Positions 19,895 through 28,574 of a stretch of 57,373 bases of DNA are shown here, one piece after another. The notes beneath the pieces were generated by a model. It saw only the letters and a list, made by a program, of their open reading frames with translations. It did no database searches and was not told the DNA's origin. The DNA is taken from positions 1 through 57,373 of the forward strand of contig CAIQHB010000053.1 in assembly GCA_903871465.1 (NCBI GenBank). The letters are read 5' to 3'. Positions within the stretch are counted from its first letter, which is position 1. Every line of letters begins with the position of its first letter. The stretch is from an uncultured Methanosarcinales archaeon. GTDB taxonomy: Archaea > Halobacteriota > Methanosarcinia > Methanotrichales > Methanotrichaceae. Position numbers and translations under genes: made by a program.

Positions 19895-21418
19895 TCAGCG
19901 GATGAGCACTGCGCTCAGGACCACCACGAAGAGGCCCAGGAAGAACCAGCCCAGTATCCCTTCCGCCATAGCCAGATGCTTGTAAACGCCTACCGGATAG
20001 GTGTTAACGGGTGCCTGGGAAGTGGTGAACATGGCTATGCTGAAGTATAGGGCATCAGTGAAAGAGACGCGCGTGCTGGGCTTCAGCCTGGTGTCTCCAG
20101 GAAGCTCTATGCCTTCGATCTCGAACTTGTTCATGCCCTTTCCCGCCCAGAACATCAGGCCAAAAATGAGAATGGTAAAGAGACACCAGAAGACGGTGTA
20201 GCTTACCCGAACTCCATAGCCGCAGGAGAGCCAGGAGATGATATCAGATAACTTGGACCAGCCCCATGGCTCCTCGTTCTGGCCGATTCTGCGGTACTGG
20301 TAATAACATTCATCCGCATCGTCAAACCACTCCAGGCTCTTATAGTTCCTCACCAGAGCGAGGTAAGCGGCGCCGTTGTATTCCAGGCGGTCCTTTATGA
20401 TGGCCCAGTGAACCACGAACTTGGTGAAGTCGGCATTGTTAAGGTTGATCGTTGACCCTTCTAGGAAGGTTACATTGTCCAGTTGCATGCTGTAGAGCCT
20501 CGATTCTTCAAGAATCAGATCTTTATCAAACCGAGCACTTACAAAGTAGGCCAGATCAGCAAACTTTACGCCTCCAAAGTAGGCAGTCTCCTTGAAATCG
20601 ACACCTGCAAAGTCTGCCAACCCTCCGAAGCTGGACAGGCCAAAGGTGCTGCCCCTCAGGAACTCTGCGTCACGGAAGACCACATCGCTGGCAAAGCTGG
20701 TGGCGGCAAATGTGGCATTCCCCAGGAATTTTGTGTCAAGAAAGGAGGTGTGCCCGTCAAACTGCGTTTCCAGGAAGCTGACGTTCTCGAAAATCGTATC
20801 ACCAAAGGATCCTATGCGGAAGAATTGAGCAAAATTGTAGTCCACATCTCGGGCAAAACCGGAATTGAGGAATACGGCATCTCCATCGAACTGGGCGTTC
20901 CCAAAGCTGGTATCGTTTAGAAAGAGGGCGCTTATGAATGTTGCTTGGCCCCCAAAATGGGAGTTCTGAAAATCGGCCTGGCCCCTGAATTTGGCACCGG
21001 AGAGACTGACGTCACCCAGAAAACTCGATTTGGCAAAGCTTGCGTTCTCCTGAAAAACACTGCCCCGAAGATCGAGTGCCCCATCGAAGCTTATAGCATT
21101 AAAATTCATTGGACCCAGGAAGCGAGAGTTAGTTATCTTGACCGATTGCTTTACCGGCCCTGATAGCTTGGTCAAATCCAGCTGGCCGGTTATGGTGACA
21201 TTATCATAGTTCAATGGTTCGCCCGAACTTATTTGGGCCAGGATGTCTTCAGCCGCAATAACCGGGGAGGTTGGACCCTGCTGGACCTGCTGGGAGATCC
21301 CAAAGGCCACAGGCTGAGCTGAGGAGGCAGAGCATAGTAACATAAAGGAGAAGGCCAACAGAAGCCATTTAGCGATCGCAACCACAGATCCCGTTTGAGG
21401 CGTCCCTGGATTTATCAT
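19895..21418 (-). CDS. Pentapeptide-repeat protein with C-terminal channel-like domain (second gene of pair)
   Basis: A 507-residue protein. The signal peptide/anchor is KWLLLAFSFMLLCSASSAQP (about 17-36). A long run of pentapeptide-type repeats (about 80-320) has F at every fifth position, for example FGNAQFDGDAVFLNSGFARD, expected to form a right-handed beta-helix outside the cell. After a linker (DDADECYYQYRRIGQ) come a transmembrane helix (VFWCLFTILIFGLMFWAG), a pore-helix-like stretch FTDALYFSIAMFTTSQAP and a last helix (GWFFLGLFVVVLSAVLIR). That end resembles Ion_trans_2 channels, but the TVGYG filter is missing. It is 7 bases after the first gene (one operon). Confidence 0.8.
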   Translation of the reverse strand: MINPGTPQTGSVVAIAKWLLLAFSFMLLCSASSAQPVAFGISQQVQQGPTSPVIAAEDILAQISSGEPLNYDNVTITGQLDLTKLSGPVKQSVKITNSRFLGPMNFNAISFDGALDLRGSVFQENASFAKSSFLGDVSLSGAKFRGQADFQNSHFGGQATFISALFLNDTSFGNAQFDGDAVFLNSGFARDVDYNFAQFFRIGSFGDTIFENVSFLETQFDGHTSFLDTKFLGNATFAATSFASDVVFRDAEFLRGSTFGLSSFGGLADFAGVDFKETAYFGGVKFADLAYFVSARFDKDLILEESRLYSMQLDNVTFLEGSTINLNNADFTKFVVHWAIIKDRLEYNGAAYLALVRNYKSLEWFDDADECYYQYRRIGQNEEPWGWSKLSDIISWLSCGYGVRVSYTVFWCLFTILIFGLMFWAGKGMNKFEIEGIELPGDTRLKPSTRVSFTDALYFSIAMFTTSQAPVNTYPVGVYKHLAMAEGILGWFFLGLFVVVLSAVLIR

Positions 21419-21425
21419 TTTTGTA

Positions 21426-22922
21426 CTACCGGATCATAACCCGTCCCAGAGTCACCAGAAACAAGGCCAGAAGCAGCCAGCCGAGGATACCTTCCAGGAT
21501 GACGTTATACCTGTGCCGGCCAATGGGCAAGAAGTCGATGGGCCCCTGAGAAAGAAAGACCATAGTGCTGAAGAAGAGAGCGTTTCGGAAGGTGACATGC
21601 TCCGGAACTGTGTCCCGCTCAGCCTGCTCGTACAGCGGCTTGGCGGACCTGCGAATGCCATCTCCTCTCCAGAAGACCAGAGCAAAGGCCAGGATAGTCA
21701 GAAGCGCCCAGGCCACGGCATAGTCGGGACGGACGCCGTAACCGCAGGAGATCCAGGCCACGACATCAATAGCCTTAGACATCCCCCATCTCTTATGAGA
21801 TTGATCAAGCTTTCGATATTGGTAATAGCAGTCGTCCTCGTCATCTGACCAGCCTAGGCCGTGATAGTTGCTGACCAGAGCCAGATAGGCTCCCGGATCC
21901 CAGATCACGTGGCCAGTTATCTCTGCCCAGTGAGCCTTGAGGCGAGCGAAGTCGGTGTCGTTCAGGTTGATGCGGGAATCAGGCCCCAGCGTTGCCTTCT
22001 CAAAAAGCAGTGTGGAGATCGATCCACTCTTGAAGTTGAGGTTCCCATCGAACCTGGCGCCTTGAAAGCTGGCGATGTCCTGGAACTTGGTCAGGCCATA
22101 GAAGGCATCCTTCTGGAAAACGGCACCTGAGAAGTAGGCTGCATCGGAAAAGCGGGCCAGGTTGAAGCCGGCTTCGCCTGCAAAGACAGCTTCGCCAAAG
22201 GATGAGAGGCCCGAGAATTTGGCCAGGCCGAACTGTGCGGGACCGGAAAAGACGGCATCGTTGAAGCTGGCGGCGTTGAAGCGGGACTGGAAGAAGTTGG
22301 CCGTGGCCGCAAACGCGGCCGCAGAAAAGTCCAGTGCTCCGGAAAAATCCACATCAGAGAATAGAGCTTCCTGGTGGAATTGAGCCCCAGAGAAGTATGT
22401 GTATGAATCAAAGCGGGTGTAGTTGAAGTCTGCAATCCCTTTAAAGATGGTCTCTTTGAAGCTGGTGTCCTGTCGGAAATTTGTGTCCTCGAAGCTGGTG
22501 TTATCCCGAAATATGGCTCCATCGAAGACTGCGGGCCCGGCAAAGGAGGTGCCACGAAAGCTGGAGTGCTGAAAGCTGGTGTTGGCAAAATCTGCCAATC
22601 CCTGAAAGCTGGCTCTGTCAAAGCTGGCGTTGCCAAAGGAGGTGCCCCAGAGAACCAGATCTGAGTTCATGGTCAGGTCATTAAAAGTGGCGCTCGAAAC
22701 TGTGCAGTTGATGAGCTGGAGAGAGCTACCGGCTCTGGAACCCGGCAATGCGCGCAAGTTCAGGTCGCCGACGATATTGGCGCCATCATAGTAAACGCTC
22801 TGGCCATCCGACATCCTGGAAAGTATCTCGCCGGCAAGAACGTCTTGGGGAGATGCCGCCCGGACTTCTGCCACTCCAACCGCCAACAGCAAGGCCAGCA
22901 GGATCATGATCCGAAGAGCCAT
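21426..22922 (-). CDS. Pentapeptide-repeat protein with C-terminal channel-like domain (first gene of pair)
   Basis: A 498-residue paralogue of the next gene, with the same plan. The N-terminal hydrophobic signal is MILLALLLAVGVAEVRA. About 240 residues of F-phased pentapeptide repeats follow (FDRASFQGLADFANTSFQHS). The linker CYYQYRKLDQSHKRWGMSK and CGYGVRPDYAVAWALL are shared with the partner, then a pore-like FRNALFFSTMVFLSQGP and a last helix GWLLLALFLVTLGRVMIR. The filter position reads LSQGPIDFLP, so potassium selectivity is not expected. ATG 22922 is used; TTG 22931 is possible. Probably a heteromeric or paralogous surface complex with the adjacent gene. Confidence 0.8.
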   Translation of the reverse strand: MALRIMILLALLLAVGVAEVRAASPQDVLAGEILSRMSDGQSVYYDGANIVGDLNLRALPGSRAGSSLQLINCTVSSATFNDLTMNSDLVLWGTSFGNASFDRASFQGLADFANTSFQHSSFRGTSFAGPAVFDGAIFRDNTSFEDTNFRQDTSFKETIFKGIADFNYTRFDSYTYFSGAQFHQEALFSDVDFSGALDFSAAAFAATANFFQSRFNAASFNDAVFSGPAQFGLAKFSGLSSFGEAVFAGEAGFNLARFSDAAYFSGAVFQKDAFYGLTKFQDIASFQGARFDGNLNFKSGSISTLLFEKATLGPDSRINLNDTDFARLKAHWAEITGHVIWDPGAYLALVSNYHGLGWSDDEDDCYYQYRKLDQSHKRWGMSKAIDVVAWISCGYGVRPDYAVAWALLTILAFALVFWRGDGIRRSAKPLYEQAERDTVPEHVTFRNALFFSTMVFLSQGPIDFLPIGRHRYNVILEGILGWLLLALFLVTLGRVMIR

Positions 22923-23069
22923 AAATGCCAAGAGGAGAGACAGGAAACGATATAACCCTTCTTATTGCCTGAGCCTTTTTATGTATCAATGAAATGCAGC
23001 GCAAGTCCGTCTGGCGAATGCCATCTCCCATCAACTATTTCACCAGGGAAACACATCACTAAAGACAAT

Positions 23070-27497: not shown

Positions 27498-28574
27498 TTA
27501 GAGCTGAATTGACCCATTTCCTCCAATGGCATCTGTATAGCTGTAGGGCGGATATGATACATTTGCCCCAGTCCAATGCGCTTCAGGCACCTGACCGGAT
27601 ACAATCCCCCGAGCACTTACCATAATTGACTTTCCGCTAACAGGCTTACTAATCCTGACCTTCCAGCTTGCCTTAGCATTTGACCCCGCCGACATGTCTC
27701 CCAGAGAAATGTTTGTAGATCCAGAGGACCCGGAATTGAGGGAGACACCATCAGGCAAAGTTATTGTTGCCACCGCGTTTTTGGCAGGATACGGGGAGGA
27801 GTTGAAAGGCGTTGGACAGGGATATACGATATCGGCAGAGACAGTTGCCATTGAACCGGTCGTTAACGATCCCGATGTCTTGACACTAACATTCCATGGC
27901 ATCATCACCATCCCCCAATAAGGATATGATTCGCCAGCCGCCGTGTAGTTCCAGCCGCCCTGTAGTTCGCTGTAGGTCCAGGCAGTGATTCCCGTCTTGT
28001 TGGTCTGATGTTTTTGATCCCTCCCCCAGGGATCACTGAAGTAGATGATGCCATTCAGGTCGTTGTAGCCTATCGCCGTCCTATAATGACCGCCACCGCC
28101 ATTCGGTTGGAATGTCATGAGTAGAATTACTGGAGTATCGGCAGCAATAAGACTCTTCAACTCCGCTAGCCAGAATTTATCTGATGAATGTGGAAAGGAT
28201 GCATAACCTACAGCCCTTTCTGGATATCCGGCTGTTGGAACATTATGGGGAAAGAATCTTCCCTGAGCTGAACTCATATTGCTGAAGTGACCCGACCTGA
28301 CCATATCAAAGGACCATGTCCCTGCGGATGAGCTTCTTGCCACATTTGCAACCTCTTTCTGATTGATGTCCGGCCCGTAGTAGTCGTAAACACCTTCCAG
28401 AACCCCTTCGCCGCAAAATAGGCCATTCATTTGCTGGTGCCAGGGGACATTGGCGATCATATGAGATGAGGGCAAGGCCGCGTTCTCTCCCGTCTTGGCA
28501 TCTTCTGCAAACCCCGCAATCAGAAAACACTGGATCAGGACAGCGGCTATGGCTAAGCTAGAAAGAATCTTCAT
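27498..28574 (-). CDS. Secreted C39-like papain-fold protein
   Basis: A 358-residue exported protein: signal peptide ILSSLAIAAVLIQCFLIAGF, then a peptidase_C39-like domain. Candidate catalytic residues are Cys in NGLFCGEGVLEGVYDYYG (near 53), His in GGGHYRTAIGYND (near 160) and Asp in YFSDPWGRD (near 175). A C-terminal region (about 240-358) looks like an immunoglobulin-like/CARDB-type beta domain (ATITLPDGVSLNSGSSG; KASWKVRISKPVSGKSI). The protein is extracellular, so a surface peptidase or transglutaminase-like role is plausible; it is not linked to a bacteriocin ABC transporter. A secreted unknown lies upstream on the same strand. Confidence 0.75.
   Translation of the reverse strand: MKILSSLAIAAVLIQCFLIAGFAEDAKTGENAALPSSHMIANVPWHQQMNGLFCGEGVLEGVYDYYGPDINQKEVANVARSSSAGTWSFDMVRSGHFSNMSSAQGRFFPHNVPTAGYPERAVGYASFPHSSDKFWLAELKSLIAADTPVILLMTFQPNGGGGHYRTAIGYNDLNGIIYFSDPWGRDQKHQTNKTGITAWTYSELQGGWNYTAAGESYPYWGMVMMPWNVSVKTSGSLTTGSMATVSADIVYPCPTPFNSSPYPAKNAVATITLPDGVSLNSGSSGSTNISLGDMSAGSNAKASWKVRISKPVSGKSIMVSARGIVSGQVPEAHWTGANVSYPPYSYTDAIGGNGSIQL

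Follow-up and report, generated by a model that had tools for sequence, protein, structure and literature searches.

Archaeal pentapeptide-repeat pore proteins probably turned upside down by a signal peptide

The window, i.e. the whole stretch of 57,373 nucleotides that was analysed, belongs to a methane-making archaeon of Methanothrix type and carries two adjacent genes on its minus strand, designated B and A, whose products share one plan. The genes and the features located within them are listed below.

21426..22922, minus strand: gene B (P0002, 498 aa), the upstream member, with signal peptide, pentapeptide beta-helix, helical linker, TM1, pore helix, loop LSQGPIDFLP and TM2
22854..22922, minus strand: signal peptide of B, MALRIMILLALLLAVGVAEVRAA, its end placed by eye
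21954..22763, minus strand: pentapeptide beta-helix of B, residues 54-323 (Pfam; pLDDT mostly >90; HetL match)
21525..21557, minus strand: filter-position loop of B, FLSQGPIDFLP, residues 456-466, with 7 of 11 columns invariant in 15 B proteins
19895..21418, minus strand: gene A (P0001, 507 aa), the downstream member, with the plan of B and loop TTSQAPVNTYP
21314..21385, minus strand: signal peptide core of A, VVAIAKWLLLAFSFMLLCSASSAQ, from the sequence
20426..21184, minus strand: pentapeptide beta-helix of A, residues 79-331 (Pfam, AlphaFold2)
19994..20029, minus strand: filter-position loop of A, FTTSQAPVNTYP, residues 464-475, with 10 of 12 columns invariant in 26 A proteins

Only 7 bases separate the stop codon of B from the start of A, and an alternative TTG start for P0002 is located at 22931. 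BLASTP put the identity of the two proteins at 34% (E 7e-80) and a global alignment at 37%, which bears out the view of the sequence-only reading that they are paralogues paired in one operon; the pore strings quoted there, TTSQAPVNTYP and LSQGPIDFLP, proved exact, and as neither loop contains GYG the K+ filter is indeed missing from both proteins. A radical-SAM-like gene adjoins the pair at 19 of 25 loci, and hisG does so at 19 as well (names read from the sequence; some of the other loci are short contigs); these neighbours suggest a stable genomic place, not a function. It was also noticed that the minus strand of the window at 27498-28574 encodes a secreted protein whose N-terminal part looks C39/papain-like by eye.

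Both A and B begin with a hydrophobic stretch of signal-peptide type. A beta-helix of about 250–270 residues comes next, then a helical hairpin and an amphipathic helix, and after these TM1, the pore helix with its loop, and TM2, behind which the chain ends almost at once. Pfam Pentapeptide_3 (PF13576) matched P0001 with 94.4 bits and P0002 with 108.8 bits (cut-off 27), and the ten-residue blocks of the beta-helix in the AlphaFold2 models mostly had a pLDDT >90. The model of P0002, the one submitted to VIA-align, matched HetL with Z 21.4 and rmsd 2.4 over 224 aligned residues, and Foldseek returned AlbG (E 0.007) and EfsQnr (E 0.013), with nothing at E<=0.001. The absence of channel folds from these searches is uninformative, since the best Foldseek rows, like the VIA-align rows shown, lie on the beta-helix, and the pore region was modelled at low confidence (pLDDT about 39–72 by block). 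Helices were predicted at the places expected for TM1, pore helix and TM2; structure prediction, proposed in the sequence-only reading for homo- and heteromers, gave in the monomer models a confident beta-helix, together with the helices of the pore region at low confidence. Each group of the family had two hydrophobic TM helices (mean KD 1.90–2.53), and the helix preceding TM1 was too weak for a third (group means 0.28–1.05, top row 1.22).

The TM–pore helix–TM plan was found in A and B by hydropathy, supplemented by the low-confidence helices, and Ion_trans_2 (PF07885) matched P0002 with 20.7 bits, just below the cut-off of 22.5; P0001 had no match to this Pfam profile, so that neither protein reached the cut-off. 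At E<=10 the profile matched 15 of the 23 members of one alignment (A4; best 2.3e-5). The cut-off was passed by 4 of 9 scanned relatives (32.8–55.3 bits), all having GYG or GSG filters, and the other 5 were below it or unmatched; it is through these four relatives that the family is tied to K+-type channels. A TVGYG-type filter was present in relatives such as L064, L194 and L205 and in neither A nor B, and the z to the KcsA pore averaged 8.2 in the GYG-like relatives, 2.4 in A and 0.1 in B. Searching the PDB with TM-domain profiles gave no channel match, the B profile returning nothing and the A profile one chance match to a ribosomal protein (E 0.62), and the 23 members, which matched 14 Pfam families at E<=10, had no match to a ligand-binding or glutamate-receptor family. 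Pore-loop homology to AMPA receptors, suggested by the likeness of NALFFSTMVFLSQGPID and NSLWFSLGAFMQQGCD, was rejected: the z of 4.0 for P0002 against the GluA2 pore was picked post hoc, and the likeness is weak across the B proteins (mean of B representatives 1.7; A 2.2).

Comparison of 26 A proteins revealed a mean pairwise identity of 98% in the filter loop, 92% in TM2, 90% in the pore helix, 81% in TM1, 62% in the repeats and 31% in the signal peptide; in 15 B proteins the values were 94% for TM2, 91% for the filter loop, 87% for the pore helix, 76% for TM1, 60% for the repeats and 31% for the signal peptide. This pattern speaks for a pore face under selection rather than drift. Since the filter loop ranks first among the segments in A and second, after TM2, in B, the dead channel that had been offered as one reading of the pore site is unlikely and was set aside as the main one, and a non-potassium channel appears plausible for A and B.

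As to phyletic spread, a check proposed in the sequence-only reading, the A/B pair recurs across the genus. Scored by pore motif, with some genomes incomplete, A was present in 24 and B in 18 of the 26 genus genomes; A therefore looks like the core member of the pair, with B as an accessory. TM-domain identity to the proteins of the window was 73–87% in 12 B-type orthologues and 68–93% in 10 A-type orthologues. This conservation, and the recurrence of the pair across the genus, indicate that the architecture of A and B is not a product of chance.

Within the window's family, 48 of 50 genomes had the TM domain, as did 67 of the 294 genomes sampled in the phylum. When 157 aligned domain rows, short frames cut by locus ends included, were sorted by pore loop, they fell into 1) an A group of TTSQAPVNTYP type (37 rows), 2) a B group of SQGPID type (40 rows), 3) a C group of LGRSPQN type (22 rows), 4) an E group with TANSKG (10 rows), 5) an F group with TAKTQVKW (5 rows), 6) a GYG-like group (24 rows), and 7) the remaining rows, labelled other (19 rows). 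The genome of the window itself encodes paralogues without a signal peptide at C50, C39 (near 99 kb) and C16, of which the C50 protein has the K+-filter-like sequence TPGYGKYE and the C39 protein is of C type. Cap, repeat domain, linker and TM domain are alike in these paralogues and in A and B, whereas the signal peptide is absent from the paralogues and their charges are distributed as in a canonical K+ channel. Another copy in this genome, L010, lies near 180 kb on C39 and has a stop inside the domain match. At C35 (L025, minus strand), a protein that looks CHAT-like by eye overlaps or adjoins a 556-aa pentapeptide pore paralogue, the pore region of which is very divergent and forms the longest branch of the quick tree described below, and at C20:17576-17782 (L027) there is a TM-domain fragment with four in-frame stops, a decayed extra copy. 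Assignment as an anti-phage defence protein was tried and rejected, PADLOC having no match for P0001, P0002 or the C50 paralogue; its one match on L064 was at chance level (E 0.082).

Among full-length rows, a single rule called a signal-peptide-like stretch in 34 of 35 A-type, 18 of 18 B-type and 8 of 9 E-type proteins, and in none of 21 C-type, none of 4 F-type, 2 of 18 GYG-like and 5 of 16 other proteins; the remaining A-type row bears one by eye. Rows were dropped when the frame was cut at the 5′ end or the domain match started before residue 171. The start-codon rule overlooked two rows, L045 and L138, which were entered as signal-peptide rows by eye, and L104, L148 and L150 also bear a signal peptide by eye, the rule having called L104 and L150 without one; L148 lies outside the full set, and the same gene enters the 70-row sample as L190. 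The N-terminal stretch is signal-peptide-like in that its sequence is free to vary (31% identity) yet its hydrophobicity is kept. With a signal peptide and only two TM helices, the repeats are predicted to lie outside and the pore loop to enter the membrane from the cytoplasm.

The positive-inside rule provides a separate check on orientation. The K/R count on the pore-loop side minus that on the other side was positive for 19 of the 20 representatives that have a signal peptide and negative for 28 of the 30 others; the sole signal-peptide exception was L010 (−4), which was left out of the 70-row sample as a long branch. In that sample, to which sequences were added, the index was positive for 34 of the 36 rows bearing a signal peptide, with 2 ties, and negative for 32 of the 34 others; the nine added rows had their signal peptide called by eye, and the TM1 of one, L196, is probably misplaced. 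Within 15 residues on each side of TM1, 14 signal-peptide rows were positive, 2 negative and 4 tied, and among the others none was positive, 17 were negative and 13 tied. Taken as density, the K/R values showed no reversed bias in the signal-peptide rows (mean −0.009; 7 positive and 13 negative of 20) and were negative in 30 of 30 rows without a signal peptide. N-glycosylation sequons numbered 91 in the signal-peptide rows against 45.8 expected by shuffling (about 2x), and they were enriched in the rows without a signal peptide too (73 against 51.4 expected, 1.4x).

Two further archaeal families also yielded matches, with 11 genomes out of 100 and 8 out of 51, respectively; one of the two belongs to the same class. 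Seven rows (L064, L147, L190, L192, L194, L195 and L205) combine a signal peptide, by rule or eye, with a TVGYGDWYP-like filter, two of them being GSGD, and the charge indices of all seven are positive. Positive indices were also found in L193, L196, L198 and L203 from these other families, which have a signal peptide and degenerate filters; long basic TM1-pore loops accompany the degenerate filters in L196, L198 and L203. A careful tree was built from 70 rows with the filter masked and extra rows added, leaving out the long branches L006, L010, L143 and L156; the charge indices of the four long branches in the representative set were +10 and −4 (with signal peptide) and −3 and −5 (without). 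On this tree the signal-peptide rows form one starred group of 37 rows, in which L104 alone was called as lacking a signal peptide. Presence of the signal peptide changes twice on this tree, with only two independent pairs, and the filter label changes seven times. A quick tree required seven signal-peptide changes. About one gain of a signal peptide would be the simplest history suggested by these sequences, its direction being an assumption, as the root of the tree was not inferred. Because the charge contrast corresponds to about one evolutionary event and two independent pairs, the small Mann-Whitney p-values obtained do not count as independent tests, nor can the association of signal peptide and charge be taken as independent evidence in the statistical sense; what gives it weight is that each protein fits the membrane rule. 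The idea that the signal peptide is tied to loss of the filter was dropped, since there was no correlation and non-GYG members occur both with and without a signal peptide.

On balance, we favour with some confidence the interpretation that A and B belong to the K+-channel-type pore-loop superfamily and sit upside down in the membrane, with the pentapeptide rod outside. The Sec signal peptide would export the rod, TM1 would run inwards, the pore helix and loop would dip in from the cytoplasm, and TM2 would run outwards to end at the outer surface. We infer the outside location and the inversion from the signal peptide, the parity of two TM helices and the charge pattern. By analogy with the superfamily, four subunits, of A alone or of A and B, may surround one pore. 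More speculatively, the pore may conduct cations with low or no K+ selectivity, and a force on the rods, or binding to them, may gate it, perhaps via contacts with the S-layer or with the sheath that Methanothrix possesses. The earlier reading thus holds as to architecture, operon pairing and missing K+ filter, is doubtful as to the dead channel, and had noticed neither the likely inversion of the pore nor the same-genome paralogues that have no signal peptide.

Other explanations have to be weighed against an inverted pore. A channel that needs both A and B as subunits (an obligate heteromer) is unlikely, as B is absent or broken at several loci while A persists. Among 25 named A loci (titled Methanothrix, Methanosaeta or Methanotrichaceae, and one 'uncultured archaeon'), an intact B lay immediately upstream in 14, and genome G016 keeps both genes though they are unlinked, both of which favour partnership; against it, B was not found upstream in 4 loci (one with just 2.3 kb of upstream DNA), was broken or partial in 3 (L178, L185, L188) and internally deleted in 1, a contig edge cutting the last 3, and no intact B was among the matches listed for G017, G027 and G031, which are 94–96% complete. 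The internal deletion (L165, 6584-7978) removes in frame 30 residues with the filter and about half of TM2, and may reflect either genuine loss or faulty assembly. This deletion and the other missing or broken copies of B would also suit a TM end that is a former channel, now a non-conducting anchor or multimeriser of the surface rod (a mechanical anchor or sheath tether), as would the loss of the GYG filter from A and B and the long, confidently folded rod. We regard such a role as rather improbable, for an anchor would not need so conserved a pore loop, and the 98% (A, top) and 91% (B, second to TM2) identity of the filter loop, above TM1 and rod, would go unexplained; moreover, A has been kept in 24 of the 26 genus genomes.

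It is also quite improbable that the N-terminal stretch is not a working signal peptide and that the orientation is canonical, with cytoplasmic repeats and an outward pore loop. The same-genome homologues without a signal peptide look canonical by charge, and by K/R density the bias of the signal-peptide rows is lost, not reversed; both points speak for such an arrangement. However, the stretch behaves as signal peptides do, varying in sequence while staying hydrophobic (34 of 35 rows of A type, all 18 of B type), the K/R counts have moved to the pore-loop side in the rows that bear it, and these rows have an excess of sequons.

Returning to the inverted pore, we incline slightly to a history in which one signal-peptide gain naturally flipped the K+-channel pore within an archaeal family of pentapeptide-repeat channels, without a glutamate-binding domain. 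Some descendants, in other archaeal families, would have kept a K+ filter and be inverted K+ channels, and others, including the Methanothrix pair, would have new, highly conserved non-GYG filters gated by the extracellular rod, with both orientations present in one genome. It is probably a signal peptide, then, that turned these archaeal pore proteins upside down.

A and B share TM1–pore helix–TM2 with the two-TM K+ channels of KcsA type (PF07885), but they have no GYG filter and would be upside down, a pore topology like the inverted one of animal ionotropic glutamate receptors. They share the beta-helix fold with HetL, AlbG and EfsQnr, which are soluble cytoplasmic proteins with no TM pore. 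As described in part of a 2010 survey, GluR0 and the prokaryotic glutamate receptors have a signal peptide, an extracellular domain and an inverted M1–pore loop–M2 (PMC2950845), an arrangement predicted here for A and B; unlike A and B, they have a glutamate-binding S1/S2 around the pore, whereas A and B have a pentapeptide beta-helix before the pore and nothing after it, the rod taking the place of the ligand-binding domain. A passage of the survey divides the prokaryotic receptors into one group with and one without a K+-like filter, a split also seen in the A/B family, and reports having found neither group in archaea (PMC2950845). That a K+ pore module can work inverted is indicated, in a section of PMC6385376, by a chimera of a viral K+ channel and a glutamate receptor; this chimera was man-made, whereas the inversion of A and B appears to be natural. 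A signal peptide fused to a small viral K+ channel can control inverse orientation, according to a passage of PMC12332018 citing the PMC6385376 work. Searches of open-licence PMC listings brought up no paper evidently about this pentapeptide-repeat pore family.

How glutamate receptors adopted an inverted K+-channel pore is an evolutionary question that, as set out in part of PMC6385376, has been approached through GluR0 and an engineered chimera. If the interpretation is true, both orientations would exist as homologous genes in one cell with the signal peptide as the difference, so that inversion could be tested by swapping one N-terminal segment, and the conserved pore loops SQAPVN and SQGPID, new and lacking GYG, would become available for measurements of selectivity.
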